Source: Streptomyces sp. 840.1 (GTDB lineage: Bacteria; Actinomycetota; Actinomycetes; Streptomycetales; Streptomycetaceae). From it: a stretch of DNA of 64,000 bases. A model generated the notes under the pieces. It worked only from the letters and a program-made list of their open reading frames with translations, did not search any database and was not told where the DNA came from. The stretch lies in NCBI RefSeq assembly GCF_003751445.1, contig NZ_RJUU01000001.1:253001-317000 (forward strand). Reading direction: 5' to 3'. Position 1 is the stretch's first letter, and each line of letters begins with the position of its first letter. Shown in pieces: positions 9,135-52,646 of this stretch. The translations under genes and the position numbers were made by a program.

Positions 9135-10061
9135 TCAGCCCTTGGTGAGGATGGAGCGGCCGAAGAACAGCAGGTTGGCCGGCTTCTCCGCGAGGCGGCG
9201 CATGAAGTAGCCGTACCAGTCGGTGCCGTAGGCGGTGTAGACGCGCATGCGGTGACCCTCGGCCGCGAGCCGGATGTGCTCGTCGCTGCGGATGCCGTAC
9301 AGCATCTGGAACTCGTACTCGTCGAGCTTGCGGCCGGCCTTGCGGCCCAGCTCCTGGGCGATGGCTATCAGACGCGGGTCGTGGGACCCGATCATCGGGT
9401 AGCCGTCGCCGTCCATCAGCGTCCGCAGGATGCGGACGTACGCCTTGTCGATCTCGGCCTTGACCTGGTACGCGACGGAGGCGGGCTCCTTGTAGGCGCC
9501 CTTCACGATACGGACGCGGCTGCCGGCGTCGGCCAGGCGGCGCGCGTCGTCCTCGGTGCGGAAGAGGTAGGCCTGGATGACGCATCCGGTCTGCGGGTGG
9601 TCCTTCCGCAGCTCCTCGTGGATGGCGAACATCGAGTCGAGGGTGGTGTGGTCCTCGGCGTCCAGCGTCACCGTGGTGCCGATCGCGGCGGCGGCCTCGA
9701 CGACCGGGCGGACGTTGGCGAGGGCCAGCTCGTGCCCCCCGTCCAGCGCTTGGCCGAACATGGAGAGCTTCACGGACATCTCGGCCCGCGTGCCCAGACC
9801 GAGGTCCTTCAGGCGGCCGACGAGCTCCAGGTACGCGTCGCGCGCGGCGGCGGCCTGCGCGGGCGTGGTGATGTCCTCACCGACCACGTCCATGGTGACT
9901 TCGAGGCCCTTGCCGGCGGCGTCCTCGATGATCGGGACGACCTGCTCGACCGTCTCACCGGCGATGAACCGGCCGACGACCTGCTTGGTGCCCGGGGCTG
10001 CCGAGATGAAGCGGCGCATCTTGTCGCTGCGGGACGCGGCGAGAATCACGGGACCCAGCAC
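9135..10061 (-). CDS. Proline dehydrogenase (monofunctional, FAD)
   Basis: 308 residues. Oxidises L-proline to P5C, passing electrons through FAD to the membrane quinone pool. Motifs of the PRODH barrel are clear: [53 protein letters not shown] and [10 protein letters not shown]. The GTG start at 10059-10061 has a strong GGAGGTG four bases upstream; the frame stays open to 10196, but that stretch is not family-like. First gene of the proline operon, separated by 189 bases from a divergently transcribed PucR regulator with a palindrome between them. Confidence 0.94.
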
Positions 10062-45893: not shown

Positions 45894-46694
45894 ATGGACA
45901 AGACTCTCTCCCGCGACGGCACCCTGATCGCGTACCGGTGCCGGGGTGAAGGACCGCCGGTGATCCTGGTGGGCGGGGCCCTGGCCACGGCCGCGACCGA
46001 GGCCCCGCTGGCGCGCCTGCTGGCGCCGCGCTTCCACGTCGTCACCTACGACAGGCGCGGCCGGGGCGACAGCGGGGACAGCGGGCCGTACGCGGTGGAG
46101 CGCGAGATCGAGGACCTGGGCGCGGTCGTCGCGGCGGTGGGCGGCCGCCCCTCGGTGTTCGGCGCCGGGGCCGGCGGCGCGCTGGCCCTGGAGGCGCAGG
46201 CGGCCGGGCTCCCCGTCGGCCTGCTCGCGGTCTACGAGCCGCCGTACACCCCCGGCCCGGCCGGGCTGCTGTTCAAGGCGGGCTGCACGGAGCGGCTGCA
46301 CCGGCTGCTGTCCGCCGGGGACCGGGACGGGGCGGTGGAGCTCTTCCTGGCCACGACGGGCGTCCCGGCCGATCTGATCGCCAGGATGCGGAGTGCGCCG
46401 CTGTGGCGGAACCTTGAGTCGATGGCGCACACTCTGGCGTACGACGACGCGCTGCTCGGCGACGGCTCGGTGCCCGAGGAGCGGTTCGCCTCCGTCACGG
46501 CACGGACCCTCGTGGTCGTCGGCGGGTTCAGCACGGCCTCCGCGAGGGCGGCGACCCGGCTACTGGCGGACGCCCTCCCCCGGGGCCGCCACCGCACGCT
46601 GACGGGCCAGACCCGCGAGCTGGCCCCGCAGGTGGTCGCGCCGGTGCTGGCGGAGTTCTTCACCCGGAACGTGTACGCGGGCCGGGCGTTCTGA
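45894..46694 (+). CDS. Alpha/beta-hydrolase-fold protein lacking nucleophile and catalytic His
   Basis: 266 residues. The fold is clear (PPVILVGGALATAATEAP, YDRRGRGDSGDSGPYAVEREIEDL), and it resembles a common actinobacterial hydrolase group. In that group the elbow reads G-x-S-x-G; here it is GAGAG (90-94), so the serine is glycine. The usual GQxH near the C-terminus reads GQTR (Arg 241). Both changes remove catalysis, so the protein is probably a non-enzymatic binder or is drifting. The gene is otherwise intact with normal codon use. It is the last core gene before the low-GC island. Confidence 0.85.
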   Translation: MDKTLSRDGTLIAYRCRGEGPPVILVGGALATAATEAPLARLLAPRFHVVTYDRRGRGDSGDSGPYAVEREIEDLGAVVAAVGGRPSVFGAGAGGALALEAQAAGLPVGLLAVYEPPYTPGPAGLLFKAGCTERLHRLLSAGDRDGAVELFLATTGVPADLIARMRSAPLWRNLESMAHTLAYDDALLGDGSVPEERFASVTARTLVVVGGFSTASARAATRLLADALPRGRHRTLTGQTRELAPQVVAPVLAEFFTRNVYAGRAF

Positions 46695-46755
46695 TGGATA
46701 CTGGACCGCCAGCCAGGGTCGCTGCAAGGCTGTGCAGCCATACGGGAGAGTATTC

Positions 46756-47342
46756 ATGGCCCCACGGAGCAAACCCACTGGACGCCAGCGCCGCTTGGCC
46801 ACCGAAGTCCGTCGCAGACGCGAGCGAGTTGGCATCTCGTTTTAGGAGGCCGCCGCCCGCTACTCGGATCAGACCGCACGATGATCTCCGATATCGAGGC
46901 CGGGCGCACCGGCCTCAGTGAGGCCAGCGTGCGGCAGATCGCCGGCCACCACGAATGCGACGACCCGGCACTGCTAGCCGCCCTCGTGGCGATGGCGGGC
47001 GGCCGCCGCGCCCGGCACTGGTGGGACGAGTACCGGGGCAAGGACCCCGACGGCCACCCAGACGTCTCCGAGATGCGGACGCGCCGAAAGCGCCCATGCG
47101 ACCCGGCTGGTCACCCCGCTTCGCGCGGGCCCTACATGGCGCAGGCCAGTCGGATCCTTTACGCCGAGGGGCCGGTCGCCCAGCACCACGCCGTCCAGCT
47201 CGACACATCGTTCGGGGCTCATTTCATTGACGCGCCGACACCGTCGGGGATCTATCGTTCCCTTCTCAACCTGATGGAGGGTTCCGCGCTTCCTCCCGGC
47301 GAGTCCCGTGAGCTCATCCGGTAGATCGCCCGCAAGCCGTGA
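46756..47342 (+). pseudogene. Decayed XRE/DUF5753 helix-turn-helix regulator
   Basis: Starts MAPRSKPTGRQRRLATEVRR and VGISF, then an in-frame TAG, then EAAARYSDQTAR, then a one-base frameshift into MISDIEAGRTGLSEASVRQI, completing the XRE helix-turn-helix. After WWDEYRG about 120-150 residues of the usual DUF5753 domain are missing; the end resumes with QLDTSFGAHFIDAPTPSGIYRS and NLMEGSALPPGESRELIR, another TAG, and IARKP before a TGA. Two stops, a frameshift and an internal deletion make it non-functional. The intact family (WhiJ-like) pairs with a DUF397 gene, as here. Confidence 0.8.
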
Positions 47343-47352
47343 GGGCCCCAAC

Positions 47353-47560
47353 GTGCCCGAACTTGGCTGGCAACGCTCGCCCTTCTGCGGAGGGGGAGGC
47401 AACAACTGTGTCGAGATCACCGCATCGACCGAGGACGGCCTCATCGCCCTGCGCAAGAGCGAGCCCGGCAGCCCTCCTGGTCACCGGAAGGAACGCCCTG
47501 TGCGCGCTGCTTGTCGTCGTGAAAGCTGGTCAGGTCCATGAACCGCCTCGCGCGATGTAG
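47353..47560 (+). pseudogene. Frameshifted DUF397 partner gene
   Basis: From a GTG at 47353 the frame encodes PELGWQRSPFCGGGGNNCVE, the DUF397 hallmark, and ends usefully at LIALRKSEPGS. The conserved C-terminus (AALLVTGRNALCALLVVVKAG) continues in a second frame, so a single-base shift lies near 47460-47475. DUF397 proteins are small partners of XRE/DUF5753 regulators in Streptomyces development and toxin-like pairs. Both members of the pair are broken. Confidence 0.75.
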
Positions 47561-47625
47561 AGATCTCAGATCGTGGTGACGACCGAGGGTTCACCTCGGT
47601 CAGTAGTGAGTCCTTTCCATCTTGG

Positions 47626-47860
47626 TCAAGTGGCGAGTTGGTGGGCGCCGGCTCGGACGACGGCTGTGATCCGGGTAGTGCCCCAGCGGAGCTTCCGCAG
47701 GAGCCGCCAGGACTTGAGAATGGCCATGGCACATTCACCGAGGCTGCCGATCTTGGCGTGATCGCCGTTATGACGTCGGCGCCATCCGCGCAGGCGCTTG
47801 CTCCGGATCGGGACACGGATCGCGAGGTCAGCACCCTGGAGTTGGTATCAATGCGTCGTG
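47626..47860 (-). mobile_element. C-terminal remnant of an IS transposase (IS5/HARBI-like DDE type)
   Basis: Reading the minus strand from about 47860 to the stop at 47626 gives YQLQGADLAIRVPIRSKR, then HAKIGSLGECAMAILKSWRL and LRKLRWGTTRITAVVRAG, then HQLAT. This matches the end of DDE transposases that finish AILKSWRLLRKLRCSTTRIT in actinobacterial IS elements (from memory). An upstream stop (after codon for His) and the missing catalytic domain show it is a fragment. It probably marks one junction of the island. Confidence 0.65.
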
Positions 47861-47901
47861 CCCTTTCAGCTATTCATCGTGAGCGCGTTCCCATACCAAC
47901 T
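47840..47901. repeat. 9-bp inverted repeat beside the IS remnant
   Basis: AGTTGGTAT (47840-47848) and its exact complement (47893-47901) are separated by 44 bases. It could be a rearranged IS fragment or a hairpin; no function assigned. Confidence 0.4.
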
Positions 47902-48006
47902 GATCTCCACACTGGTCCCGAGCCAGTCGCGCCATGGTCCGCCTGCCCTGGCCGCCGACCGCCAGCGGAAGGGGCTGGACGCACCAGCCTGATGCGTATG
48001 AGTAGG
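47861..48006. other. Non-coding stretch between IS remnant and ATPase stop
   Basis: No open frame with coding character or family similarity on either strand. It belongs to the decayed left part of the island and contains half of the 9-bp inverted repeat. Confidence 0.5.
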
Positions 48007-50646
48007 TTAAGCCTGGCCCTTGCGCGTCATGTTGAGCGCCTTGCGGTACATCTCTGGAACGCGGTAGCGCTCCACCTTTTCTCGCGGGCCGGGCACTTCC
48101 TCCAACAATCCAACGTCGCGGGCAAGCTTGACGAGGTCGGGGGAGGTCTCCTCGAGTTGCTCGGTGGCAAAGGGCGTGGAACCGATCTGGCGCAGTCTGC
48201 GTAGCAGTGGATCGAGCTCGGGGAATTCGTCACGCTGAAGCGCGTCCAGGGCCGATTCGCTGACCTCGTCCAGGGACTCCACCAGTGCGCGGGGACGGAT
48301 GATGGACCGAGAATAAGAATTTCCGGCCTCGAAGCCCCGCTCCAATCCGACTGCGGCTGTCATCATCTGGGCAAGCGCCCGGGGGGCATGGTCGCCGTTA
48401 GCGTCGGCGAGCCGTGACCAAACCCAGTTGTCGGTGTAGGCCGTGCGCCCGCCGGACACCCGCTCGCTCGCCAGGATCACCCAGGCATTGCGCACGAACT
48501 CCTCTGGCCAGTACTCGACCGGAGTCTTCTCCAACCTGAAGTCGGGCTTGTTCAGGCGTGCGGTAACCAACTGCCTGAACGGCTGGGACCGCCACGCCTG
48601 CTTGATCACGATGCGGAGGTAGTCCGTCTTGTTGGACCAACTCAAACGTGCCGAACGAGCACTCAGATGCGACTTGTTGGGCACCTTTGACTCACGCCAG
48701 ATGTCCTCGCGCAACAGAATCTTGAAGTGCAGCTTGCGCAGCTGCGGCCCAAGCGAACCCACCGCTGTGAGTAGACCGGCCACCCCGTCGTTGCGGCGCC
48801 TGCGATCGTTGTCGCTGTTGCCGAAGCCGGTATCCAGGGCATCGAACAGCAGCACGTGGTCCCCGTCGAGACTACGGTCGATTTCCTGAAGCCATTCGCC
48901 GACCAGCAAAGGCGCTTGCGAGTCCGACAACAGGGCCCTTACGTCGTTGAGCAGGTCTGTCTTGAGATAGTCGCCACCTGCCGCGGGGACGCCGATGGGC
49001 GCCGACGCCCAGTTGGGCTGCGGCACGTTGGACAGGTATTGACGGATAGCGAGGCCGACAAGCACCGGCCACGCCTGACGCCACTCCAACCCCCGCTCCC
49101 GCAGGTCCGCCTCGAGCGTCCCATACACGTCCGCGTCCGGCGTCCAGCTCCGATGAGTGTCGAGTCCTGGCGGGCCGGTGACGACAACGGCCGTCGGCGT
49201 CTCGGCGAGCCTGCGGAACACGGCCGTCTTGCCGGTGCCTTTGCGCCCGATCACGACCACGGTGTCCAAGTCGAGCGCACGGCCCACGTCGGCGGTGCTC
49301 AGGAAGGTGCCGTTCAGTTCTTCCAGATCCTGATTTTCGGCTGTCTCTCCGGCAAATTGCAGCGAAGTCAGCACTTCCGCTTTGCTCGGTTCCGGGACCT
49401 CATGCTCACGCTCTCCGAGCGCGTCACGCGGTTCCACAAGCCCGGTGATCCAGTCCGCGACTACGGTGAAGTCTTCCGCACCCTGGACACGCATCACGGA
49501 GTCCGAGACGGCCAGCGTCTCCTGGTAGCCGATGACCTGAGTGATCTCTTCCAGCGCCTCGAAAGCCGGGCCGCCTGCGGTGTTTCGTGCTACGGACAAC
49601 CAATCCTTGATCCACTCCTGGGCGCGCTCCGCATACAGAGCGCGAACCTCAGGGGTGGCTGGCACCGGGGACACCAGGAAGCGAATCTCCGGAGTGCACG
49701 GCTTTCCCTCCACCGAGCGACGGGAATTCGCTGCGAGCAGAGCACGGGTGAGCGCCCGAGTGCCAGCCTTGGCCTGTGGGTGCGGGTAGAAGGCAATCAC
49801 GTTGATGTCGGAGACGTCGAACAGCAGGGGAGCCGCCAACGGACTGATGCCGGTTCGAGAATCGATAAGGACCACGTCCGGCTGCTCAGCGAGGCCAGAC
49901 ACTGCCTCCACCAACAATCGCAGGGGGTTAATTTCGTCTTCCCCGTACCAGGCCGAAGGATCGAGGTGGGAAAGCAGTCGGGCGTACTCCGCGCCGGGGC
50001 ACCCCGCCGGAAGCAGAAACAGGCCAGCATCCTCGGTGACCTGTAGGACGTGTTCGTCCAGCCCGTAGATTTCACCGTTGACCTCAGCCGCTGCCAGCAA
50101 CGGCACCACGCCCATGCCTTCGGTTACACGATCCTCGACATCGAAGAGCGACGCTAGACCGGGGGCTTCCAAGTCCATATCGATGCAAAGCACCTTGAGA
50201 CCCTGCGCCGCAATAATGCGCGCCGCGTGCGCCAGGGCCGTGGATCGGCCGACGCCGCCACGCAGCGAGTAAAACGTCGAGACCACAGGGGACGGGAGCG
50301 TGCCGTAATCCTCGGACGGAAAACGCACTGTGATCTCGTCCGCTCGACCGTTCGCCAACGCCTCGGGCCACAGCGGCAATTCCGCGAGCACAGGCGGGAT
50401 ACCCAGTTCGTCCTTTTCTGCGAACCTCGCCTCATCCGGGGTCAGCAACTCAAAACGGACGACTTCCGCGCCCGGCACCAGGGCCTGGACGCGCTCGCGC
50501 CGAGCCCGCGGCGTCATCCTGGTGAACGCCTCCGAGACCACCGCAACCCGAATGCCAACGAAGGGATCTGCGGTGACCCGCACCTGCTCCCCAAAGGACT
50601 GTCGCAGGATTTCTTCGATACGACTGATTTCGTCCGGCTGTGTCAC
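48007..50646 (-). CDS. Double P-loop ATPase (BolA-like N-terminus, KGGVGR-variant ParA/MinD domain, Sll1717-like ATPase)
   Basis: 879 residues from the GTG at 50644-50646, which overlaps the HEPN stop (GTGA) and has GAGGAGGA eight bases upstream. Residues 1-75 resemble BolA (ISRIEEILRQSFGEQVRV, VVSEAFTRMTPRARRERVQALV, LLTPDEA). Residues 120-400 form a ParA/MinD domain with the deviant Walker A SLRGGVGRST (127-136; Arg replaces both usual Lys), CIDMDLEAPGL (154-164) and VVLIDSRTG (258-266). Residues 455-700 contain a second P-loop GRKGTGKTA (467-475), Walker B HVLLFDALD and the KILLREDIW segment of Sll1717-type ATPases. The C-terminus is helical. I read it as the ATP-dependent sensor or effector of a two-gene defence-like module; the role is inferred. 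Confidence 0.8.
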   Translation of the reverse strand: MTQPDEISRIEEILRQSFGEQVRVTADPFVGIRVAVVSEAFTRMTPRARRERVQALVPGAEVVRFELLTPDEARFAEKDELGIPPVLAELPLWPEALANGRADEITVRFPSEDYGTLPSPVVSTFYSLRGGVGRSTALAHAARIIAAQGLKVLCIDMDLEAPGLASLFDVEDRVTEGMGVVPLLAAAEVNGEIYGLDEHVLQVTEDAGLFLLPAGCPGAEYARLLSHLDPSAWYGEDEINPLRLLVEAVSGLAEQPDVVLIDSRTGISPLAAPLLFDVSDINVIAFYPHPQAKAGTRALTRALLAANSRRSVEGKPCTPEIRFLVSPVPATPEVRALYAERAQEWIKDWLSVARNTAGGPAFEALEEITQVIGYQETLAVSDSVMRVQGAEDFTVVADWITGLVEPRDALGEREHEVPEPSKAEVLTSLQFAGETAENQDLEELNGTFLSTADVGRALDLDTVVVIGRKGTGKTAVFRRLAETPTAVVVTGPPGLDTHRSWTPDADVYGTLEADLRERGLEWRQAWPVLVGLAIRQYLSNVPQPNWASAPIGVPAAGGDYLKTDLLNDVRALLSDSQAPLLVGEWLQEIDRSLDGDHVLLFDALDTGFGNSDNDRRRRNDGVAGLLTAVGSLGPQLRKLHFKILLREDIWRESKVPNKSHLSARSARLSWSNKTDYLRIVIKQAWRSQPFRQLVTARLNKPDFRLEKTPVEYWPEEFVRNAWVILASERVSGGRTAYTDNWVWSRLADANGDHAPRALAQMMTAAVGLERGFEAGNSYSRSIIRPRALVESLDEVSESALDALQRDEFPELDPLLRRLRQIGSTPFATEQLEETSPDLVKLARDVGLLEEVPGPREKVERYRVPEMYRKALNMTRKGQA

Positions 50647-51173
50647 AGCGCGTTCCTCCTCTGAGCTTTCGTACCGTGCACTCCTGGCCGACGCCGCAAC
50701 TGTCTGATGCACCAACTCACGAAGCGATTGGCCGCCACGATCTCGTCCTCGATCTCTACATCCTCTGGCAGCACGAGTTGATAGCGCAGACTGACGTCAC
50801 GATCCGCTAGGAAGCTCCGCACCTCCTGTGGCAGCACCTGCGGGCTGAACCCCGCGTGCTCCAGGATCGCGAGTACGTCGTGCCCGCTGCGGTTCCGTGG
50901 CACGGGGCGGCCCCGAGCGACGCACAGAGCCTTGGCGAAGCACTCAGCAGTGAATCCTAGGTAGTAGACGCAGGCCACGTGACGTCCGGCTCGATGCAAC
51001 TCAGCTGCGTCCGAGCGACGCTCCAGAGCCACGTCCTCCCACTCCTGTGACGTGCGCGGATCTTCGTACAAGCCCGTTGTCCCCCCTGCGGTGCCATCTG
51101 CTGCCACTCTAGGCTTCTTGTGGCCGCCGAGTGCTAACGAGTCCGCGTACGTGAGTGATGCTCGCTGGGTCAC
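50643..51173 (-). CDS. HEPN-like domain protein, partner of the double ATPase
   Basis: Up to 176 residues. The core (about 42-162) has the HEPN arrangement: helix EWEDVALERRSDAAELHRAG, helix YYLGFTAECFAKALCVARG, the segment PRNRSGHDVLAILEHAGF, then DVSLRYQLVLPED and EDEIVAANRFVSWCIRQLR. R93 and H98 are spaced as R-x4-H, the form of HEPN ribonuclease motifs, but in this subgroup the GHD histidine is common even in non-catalytic members. The start is uncertain: GTG 51171-51173 or an internal GTG near codon 23. The stop overlaps the ATPase start by 4 nt, so the pair is one unit. Confidence 0.65.
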   Translation of the reverse strand: MTQRASLTYADSLALGGHKKPRVAADGTAGGTTGLYEDPRTSQEWEDVALERRSDAAELHRAGRHVACVYYLGFTAECFAKALCVARGRPVPRNRSGHDVLAILEHAGFSPQVLPQEVRSFLADRDVSLRYQLVLPEDVEIEDEIVAANRFVSWCIRQLRRRPGVHGTKAQRRNAL

Positions 51174-51509
51174 TCTTCATTTCCCCGCCAGAATTAACGC
51201 CTGGCTTGGACTGAATTGCAGGTGGAAGCGTCAACCCTGCGGCGTGCCGGCCTTCCGAATCTCGGCCATGCGGCCCACACGAATGCTGCCGCTCTCCGTC
51301 TCTGGGCGTCCCGCTGCGGTCGAACCAAACCTCGCGCTTCGCTTGGGACTAGGTGTCTACCTGACCTCCTTCAGACTCGCCGCCGCCCTCTGCTTCTACA
51401 AATGACTCGTCTGTCTCACCACATAGGACACAGTCCTTGCCCCGTTTTACGCACACCTCGTGCTGCCAGTCCGCTGGCGGGGCTAATATGACCCCGGTCG
51501 CATCAGCGG
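51174..51509. other. 336-base region between mnmA stop and the HEPN gene
   Basis: Must contain the promoter of the HEPN-ATPase pair. A minus-strand frame continues from mnmA DNA through WQHEVCVKRGKDCVLCGETD to a stop at 51349, but it has no clear start or homologues I know, so I do not call it a gene. No RNA gene or strong hairpin is seen. Base composition is lower in G+C than mnmA. Confidence 0.5.
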
Positions 51510-52646
51510 TCAGCAGGAAGTGGCCGCGGCCGTCTCGCGGCGCACCGTCGTCGCGATCGTCGCGGAGCCGACCACCCGGGTGCCGTCGTACAGCACGACC
51601 GCCTGGCCGGGCGCCACGCCGCGCACCGGCTCGGTGAACGAGACGTGGAGCGTGCCGTCGGTCAGCTCGGCGCTCACCTCCGTCTCGCCGCCGTGGGCGC
51701 GCAGCTGGGCGGTGTACGTGCCGGGACCGGACGGCGGGGTGCCGCACCAGCGGGGCTTGATCGCGGTCAGGGCGGTCACGTCGAGGGCCTCGACGGGGCC
51801 GACGGTCACCGTGTTGTTCACCGGGGAGATGTCCAGGACGTAGCGCGGCTTGCCGTCGGCCGCGGGGTGGCCGATGCGCAGGCCCTTGCGCTGGCCGATG
51901 GTGAAGCCGAAGGCGCCCTCGTGGGTGCCGAGCTTGGTGCCGGACTCGTCGAGGATGTCGCCCTGCGCCGTGCCGCCGAGGCGGTCGGCCAGGAAGCCCT
52001 GGGTGTCGCCGTCGGCGATGAAGCAGATGTCGTGGCTGTCGGGCTTCTTGGCGACGGCCAGGCCCCGGCGCTCGGCCTCGGCGCGGATCTCGTCCTTGGT
52101 GGTGAGGGTGTCGCCGAGCGGGAACATGGCGTGGGCGAGCTGGCGCTCGTCCAGGACGCCCAGCACATAGCTCTGGTCCTTGGCCATGTCGGAGGCGCGG
52201 TGCAGCTCACGGCTGCCGTCCGAGGCGAGCACGACCGTGGCGTAGTGGCCGGTGCAGACCGCGTCGAAGCCCAGCGCGAGCGCCTTGTCGAGCAGCGCCG
52301 CGAACTTGATCTTCTCGTTGCAGCGGAGGCACGGGTTGGGCGTGCGCCCGGCCTCGTACTCGGCGACGAAGTCCTCCACGACGTCCTCGCGGAAGCGTTC
52401 CGCCAGGTCCCAGACGTAGAAGGGGATGCCGATGACGTCCGCGGCGCGGCGGGCGTCGCGGGAGTCCTCGATCGTGCAACAGCCCCGGGCCCCGGTCCGG
52501 AAGGACTGCGGGTTCGCGGAGAGGGCGAGGTGCACGCCGGTCACGTCGTGGCCCGCCTCGGCGGCGCGGGCCGCGGCGACGGCGGAGTCGACACCGCCCG
52601 ACATGGCGGCGAGGACACGGAGGGGGCGCTGGGAAGTCTGAGTCAT
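51510..52646 (-). CDS. mnmA: tRNA-specific 2-thiouridylase
   Basis: 378 residues. PP-loop ATPase motif [14 protein letters not shown], catalytic cysteines in [14 protein letters not shown] and [14 protein letters not shown] (Cys about 100 residues later), and [23 protein letters not shown] of the C-terminal domains. It thiolates U34 of Lys, Glu and Gln tRNAs using persulfide from the cysteine desulfurase encoded at 53387. The start [15 protein letters not shown] at 52644-52646 is family-typical; the frame open to 52802 is not used because it overlaps the divergent amidase gene. Confidence 0.96.

Follow-up and report, generated by a model that had tools for sequence, protein, structure and literature searches.

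Here, we report a two-gene element in a 64,000-nucleotide stretch of Streptomyces sp. 840.1 DNA (contig NZ_RJUU01000001.1, positions 253,001 to 317,000; this whole stretch is the window below, and features of the pair are given in its coordinates), which encodes a small HEPN-like protein and, directly downstream, an 879-residue protein with two different P-loop domains, for short the ATPase. Relatives of the pair are embedded in bacteriophage exclusion (BREX) operons of two kinds, in Hma operons and in type I restriction-modification (R-M) operons, on five branches of the ATPase tree, and this is a new observation. Because of this genomic context a defence role is well supported, and we consider it likely that the pair is a defence module. 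The best explanation is a self-contained two-gene anti-invader module, the fused form of the PADLOC candidate PDC-M28, used as a switchable backup; for the full mechanism stated below, from a sensor to an HEPN RNase, the chances seem to us about even. An earlier note on this DNA, made from the sequence alone, had linked the pair to defence, and the embedding of the relatives bears that link out.

Loci with relatives were gathered with the patterns DMDLEAPG and TFYSL[RK]GGV, and 80 of 116 confirmed stretches were kept; the conservation of the pattern letters themselves is biased because the patterns selected the loci, the Arg after GGVG being outside the pattern. The gene maps and PADLOC show, in L038 (uncultured Lamprocystis), that BrxC, two unnamed genes, PglXI, HEPN, ATPase, BrxHI and PglZ follow one another on one strand and the PglXI and HEPN open reading frames (ORFs) touch at 9585. 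On another contig of the same assembly (L059), BrxC is followed by two minus-strand ORFs and a PDC-S04/Fic-like gene and then by HEPN, ATPase, PglX, PglZ and BrxL, with BrxC and the genes from HEPN to BrxL sharing one strand; by homology, L015 shows this arrangement up to the end of its contig, and in L058 a PglX piece and a PglZ relative flank the pair. Where BREX type names go beyond the model names, we take these loci to be type 1 and type-3-like. Outside BREX, the Halomonas sp. EAR18 locus (L030) has an HmaC/DUF499 ATPase, a 210-residue gene product, an HmaB methyltransferase, HEPN, ATPase and a PLD-helicase on one strand, L040 has weak Hma-like matches upstream, and a deltaproteobacterial metagenome-assembled genome (L019) has HsdR, HsdM, HsdS, HEPN, ATPase and an OLD-like AAA protein, again on one strand.

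On the ATPase tree, a quick tree of 64 rows that omits L067 and L056 (short or broken) and L073, the embedded state (L015, L019, L030, L038, L058 and L059) needs at least five changes, which may be gains or losses, with rows whose flanks are cut counted as not embedded. The Hma-associated L030 branches beside the actinobacterial group that holds the window protein, at 99% in the SH-like approximate likelihood ratio test, but on a long branch. In a neighbour test on 59 loci with greedy ORF calls (243 of 305 eligible near genes and 148 of 221 far genes; proteins of at least 1500 residues dropped; seven near-duplicates among the 66 long-form loci left out), PADLOC families at E 1e-15 numbered 101 per 116 and 127 per 127 near proteins and 50 per 148 far proteins, which is only a rough sign of enrichment because several families count per protein.

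Other genes were also seen next to the pair. A PDC-S04/SoFic-like protein directly adjoins it in L059 (8447-9529), a protein matching the MADS mad3/mad8 models directly adjoins it in L053 (12640-15576), and an OLD-like AAA gene stands just downstream of it in two distant hosts, L054 (12967-14391) and L019 (12839-14221, matching NsnB, HEC-03B and AriA models).

Several observations weigh against a defence role. Most loci have no restriction or BREX operon beside them, the genes around the pair are often housekeeping genes, of the six embedded rows four are Chromatiaceae by label, phage records gave no relative, none of the 14 pattern matches in viral contigs was a relative, and at the window's own site no defence neighbour was found, the rest of the window lying outside the PADLOC scan. 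The plasmid search returned one partial Nostoc match only, covering 34% of the query.

The two proteins travel together. HEPN is directly upstream of the ATPase in 61 of the 66 loci with a long ATPase N-terminal half (two of these HEPN matches are weak, L024 with E 0.19 and L051 with E 0.37), and in 44 of the 61 the genes overlap in frame through a shared start and stop (35 ATGA, 6 GTGA and 3 TTGA). Of the five misses, two are loci truncated at contig ends (L013 and L043), in L073 an HEPN ORF is present but the ATPase frame next to it is broken, and L025 and L050 have none; HEPN was likewise not seen in L040, whose ATPase is cut by a contig end and which is outside the 66, and it neighbours none of the 13 KGGVGR-only loci. 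A mirror-tree comparison of HEPN and ATPase gave r 0.80 for 53 pairs, the best of 999 permutations being 0.235, and partly reflects shared ancestry. By record title the ATPase tree spans nine phyla, and hosts of the pair include gammaproteobacteria, Magnetococcales and Bacillota. The tight coupling that the earlier note had seen is supported. In 60 of the 66 long-form loci the parts corresponding to PDC-M28B and PDC-M28C are fused. HEPN with the MinD-like half only, the Sll1717 half being missing, is found in five cyanobacterial loci (L062, L064-L066 and L069), three of which are one Hormoscilla group; since L062 nests within a full-length Moorena group on the tree, this looks like a loss, at least there.

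In the window both genes are on the minus strand, as are all features of the pair given below, and in the ORF list they share GTGA at 50643-50646, the HEPN stop and the ATPase start, an overlap that the earlier note had read in the same way and that is suited to translational coupling. The ATPase (48007-50646) starts at GTG 50646 behind AGGAGG (50655-50660), its probable ribosome-binding site. The longest form of the HEPN ORF is 50643-51173, opening at GTG 51173 (176 residues). The true start is probably TTG 51071, giving a 142-residue HEPN-T type protein (50643-51071), because AGGGGGG (51081-51087), the probable ribosome-binding site, lies upstream of it, the database's own prediction (P0001) has 142 residues, the 34 extra N-terminal residues are missing or dissimilar in the relatives compared, and the AlphaFold model of the ORF has a predicted local distance difference test (pLDDT) score below 50 over residues 1-32. 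Given this start, the HEPN end at 51173 in the earlier note is about 100 bases too far.

The HEPN protein is genuine, although its sequence signal is weak. The Pfam match (PF05168) has E 4.5e-4 and 20.8 bits versus a cut-off of 22, and the PDC-M28A match is weak and partial (E 6.1e-5, 58 residues); the AlphaFold model has the helical HEPN fold, and its best Protein Data Bank (PDB) matches are HEPN proteins, with sacsin HEPN and small archaeal HEPN proteins among the top ones. The earlier note had named failure of the HEPN similarity in structure prediction as a point that would count against it, and the similarity did not fail. In the numbering of the 176-residue ORF, five positions are unchanged in all 31 diverse HEPNs, namely E77 and K81 of an Ex3K motif (50931-50945; each in 58 of 59 relatives), H98 (50880-50882; 58 of 59), the candidate alternative catalytic His, and R130-Y131 (50781-50786; R in 60 and Y in all 61 relatives). 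HEPN-T proteins are described as having an alternative His between helices 2 and 3, an Arg ending helix 3 and Ex3[KR] in helix 2 (PMC3710099). H98, R130 and E77/K81 correspond to these residues in the AF0298 kind of HEPN-T, and their positions fit the model helices, H98 sitting between helix 65-86 and the later helices of the predicted secondary structure.

The canonical Rx4-6H is not conserved in the relatives' alignments, and the window HEPN has no His 5-7 residues past R130. An Rx4H can be read in the window protein (RNRSGH, R93 to H98) and was considered as the active site; it is missing in 8 of 18 close relatives, and because of this lack of conservation a standard HEPN RNase site is unsupported. 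For the HEPN protein, which the earlier note had suggested may be a nuclease or an adaptor, an alternative site like that of HEPN-T and AbiV is possible. AbiV shares the same alternative His (PMC3710099), and the PDB title of 9bj6 names AbiV an RNase in a two-component antiphage system.

As the earlier note had said, the large protein has two different P-loop domains; they are of the KGGVGR and the Sll1717 type, and the "ParA" P-loop is without lysine. The N-terminal part has the MinD/ParA fold (residues 118-408, 49423-50295), and residues 121-303 match the KGGVGR family NF047398 with E 1e-43. Its P-loop, RGGVGRST (residues 129-136, 50239-50262), is degenerate, Arg replacing Lys, and Lys is found in none of the 64 motif matches among the 66 loci examined (Arg in 62 and Cys in 2), so that this domain is probably not an active ATPase. 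The C-terminal half should be one; it has an intact P-loop, GRKGTGKT (residues 467-474, 49225-49248; intact in 60 of 61), and a Walker-B-like LLFDALDTGFG (residues 598-608, 48823-48855; strict pattern in 46 of 61), and residues 592-834 (48145-48873) match the Sll1717-type ATPase family NF047389 (E 1e-31, 110.6 bits versus a cut-off of 75) and PDC-M28C (E 7.3e-17). With the STAND and ORC-CDC6-like Pfam models the window protein is below all cut-offs, and two relatives are just above, P0064 (AAA_16) and P0104 (ORC-CDC6-like). A PDB search by sequence returned MinD-like matches only; the VIA and Foldseek match lists are filled by the MinD-like part and are for that reason silent on the fold of the other half.

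The same genome has a second KGGVGR-type protein (G000:C2:74011-74625; L001, L115) in an open frame of 1334 residues. In L001 a 475-residue ORF with a TIR-like start stands 5' of it and presumably resembles an FxSxx-type peptide system.

The rival explanation that survives best, which we still regard as unlikely, takes the HEPN protein as a non-enzymatic adaptor that binds a nucleotide or peptide and passes on a cue, with the large protein, through an oligomerised Sll1717 ATPase or its MinD-like domain, as the effector. The lack of the canonical Rx4-6H and the sacsin and archaeal fold matches would suit it, and some HEPN domains are described as perhaps non-catalytic binders (PMC3710099). Kaur et al. 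2020 place inactive MinD/ParA-like domains among the effector domains of conflict systems (PMC7159879), and the five cyanobacterial loci (three being the one Hormoscilla group) keep HEPN with the MinD-like half only. The invariance of E, K, H, R and Y in 31 of 31 diverse HEPNs, however, is an active-site pattern, and AbiV, with the same alternative His (PMC3710099), is named an RNase in its PDB title.

A toxin-antitoxin pair kept for its own persistence, in which the ATPase neutralises an HEPN toxin and which has no specific role against phages, seems to us more unlikely again. The known HEPN/MNT arrangement combines an HEPN, a small gene upstream and a partner that neutralises (PMC7641770), for another HEPN family a toxin-antitoxin pair with a ParA/Soj ATPase has been predicted (PMC3710099), and the window pair stands without other defence genes. 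Against this, a partner of 879 residues with an intact second P-loop is far bigger than an antitoxin requires, and relatives recur in four kinds of restriction or BREX-type operons.

The pair is horizontally acquired, accessory and foreign in character. It lies in an insertion at 46690-51533 (ends approximate, placed by alignment to G005, whose mnmA is the closest match among the same-genus genomes, 95%); by blastn the flanks are about 35 bp apart in G005 versus about 4.84 kb in the window, in agreement with the syntenic surroundings described earlier. Both flanks are 30-106 bp apart in 7 of 14 same-genus mnmA regions, whereas the other seven carry different cargo (about 0.5 to 6 kb) or lack a match to the hydrolase; a DNA match of at least 60 bp to the insertion is absent from all 14. 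The third-codon-position GC content (GC3) of the pair is 0.73-0.77 versus 0.92-0.97 in the four neighbouring genes measured, and the three 1-kb bins at 48-51 kb (GC 0.628-0.650) are the lowest of the window's 64, as expected from the low-GC segment first noticed. At E 1e-50 a relative is present in 5 of 392 genus genomes and in 1 of 396 genomes of a phylum-wide sample, the own genome included in both. One genus genome (G383) holds a homologue 81% identical over 879 residues, 1.7 Mb from its mnmA, and another (G007) a copy 43% identical and about 7.7 Mb from its mnmA, where the flanks are merely 38 bp apart. A fixed core locus, which the earlier note had named as a finding that would speak against its proposal, is ruled out by the occurrence in 5 of 392 genomes and the vacant site in relatives.

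The mnmA-side spacer tolerates insertions, because different cargo occupies it in other genus genomes (L098 1597-4613, L101 1405-7517 and L106 1560-3153). A mobile-element end at the insertion was considered and rejected, as neither a target-site duplication nor a terminal repeat was obvious there; the 64-kb window has no tRNA, and Rfam has no match within 46500-51800. Of the two remnants described earlier, the repeat at 47607-47838, parts of which recur at other places in the same genome (73-84% identity), is probably an insertion sequence (IS) remnant, for which no transposase was identified. The regulator remnant at 46757-47324 has a short ORF closed by TAG and then a truncated DUF5753 ORF (Pfam match below the cut-off); it is what is left of an XRE-type regulator that had a DUF5753 tail.

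That in this genome the pair is itself cargo of an old mobile element, now decayed or silent, is very unlikely: the IS-like and regulator remnants lie within the same insertion, but both frames are intact, each with a ribosome-binding site, and the invariant residues are retained in the window proteins. A regulator of metabolism or development in Streptomyces and other multicellular bacteria, whose link to defence is due to chance alone, would suit the many filamentous hosts (Streptomyces, Frankia, cyanobacteria) and the common housekeeping neighbours, but is highly improbable given the 5 of 392 genus and 1 of 396 phylum genomes (own included), the vacant site in relatives, the foreign GC3 and the occurrence in gammaproteobacteria, Magnetococcales and Bacillota.

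For the defence module, we infer the trigger, the activation, the RNA target and the cell arrest as follows. The large protein would be sensor and switch: its intact C-terminal P-loop (Sll1717 type, STAND/ORC-like by motifs) would bind and hydrolyse a nucleoside triphosphate upon an infection cue, and the MinD-like domain, having lost its P-loop Lys, would bind nucleotide, dimerise or dock, with no ATP turnover. In the resting cell the large protein would hold the HEPN-T protein; on the trigger HEPN would be released or activated and would arrest the cell, most probably through RNA cleavage or blockage at the alternative His/Arg site (H98 and R130, plus E77/K81), RNA being the presumed target by family precedent. 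Within BREX, Hma and type I R-M operons the pair would be a backup once the DNA-targeting layer fails, and in Streptomyces it is standalone. The switch logic would follow the precedents of PrrC, in which an ATPase sensor and a nuclease form a backup of restriction systems, and of PARIS. Inactive MinD/ParA-like domains are predicted in related conflict settings (Kaur et al., PMC7159879), and the alternative His/Arg site has been proposed for HEPN-T and AbiV (PMC3710099).

A more specific version is put forward tentatively, and we would sooner expect it to be wrong than right. The pair would be a "restriction-failure alarm", a transferable HEPN-T and pseudo-MinD/Sll1717 cassette that can work by itself and has also been built into BREX operons (type 1 and type-3-like), Hma operons and type I R-M operons. 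Its ATPase would sense that the DNA-targeting layer is inhibited, or a cue common to all these systems, and would fire an RNase with a non-canonical His/Arg site, restrained until then by a nucleotide-locked, non-hydrolysing MinD-like domain. If the reading as a backup module is right, a bare database candidate becomes a testable system, and one gene pair brought as a cassette into different defence operons would show backup cell-arrest modules to be interchangeable between restriction and BREX-type systems. The pair would also bear on whether proteins of the HEPN-T/AbiV type can be real RNases without Rx4-6H and on the role of MinD/ParA-like domains without the P-loop lysine in conflict systems, and it is a small, self-contained unit in Streptomyces for phage tests.

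The earlier note knew of no characterised system with exactly this architecture. In the open-licence PMC literature no functional study of the pair was found, neither PDC-M28 nor Sll1717 gave a match, and KGGVGR brought up just a lectin review of no relevance; the architecture is, however, already catalogued, because the PADLOC candidate models PDC-M28A (6.1e-5), B (3.7e-25) and C (7.3e-17) all match the two proteins. The order, HEPN, KGGVGR part, Sll1717 part, is that of the window; PADLOC models B (438/327 positions) and C (480 positions) separately, whereas the window has one fused protein of 879 residues. A preprint by Payne et al. 2024 is reportedly behind the PDC set. PDCs are putative candidates obtained through guilt-by-embedding, mostly without experimental validation (PMC12988326).

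Among described systems, the MAE_18760 HEPN with its ParA/Soj ATPase is also an HEPN with a ParA/MinD-fold protein, predicted to be toxin and regulator, but its HEPN family keeps Rx4-6H, which the window family does not, and the account of that pair in PMC3710099 describes no Sll1717 half. HEPN/MNT (HepT/MntA) is likewise a small HEPN with a nucleotide-handling partner. HEPN proteins, standalone or MNT-fused, are described as backup effectors in BREX loci, and the passages of PMC12839542 on them mention no ParA/MinD partner. In the VMAP-ternary and the peptide-processing systems of Kaur et al. 2020 (PMC7159879), the KGGVGR proteins, whose domains we infer to be the NCBIfam KGGVGR family, likewise have a predicted-inactive MinD/ParA-like domain, with partners that differ from those of the window pair. 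PARIS, too, pairs a sensing ATPase with a nuclease and is found inside or close to restriction or BREX loci (PMC12839542). The ATPases of PrrC and PARIS are of the ABC class and their nucleases are others (TOPRIM in PARIS), the likeness being one of context, not of homology. What the present pair adds to these systems is the embedding of one module in several unlike defence operons and the combination of an alternative-site HEPN with a lysine-less MinD-like partner.

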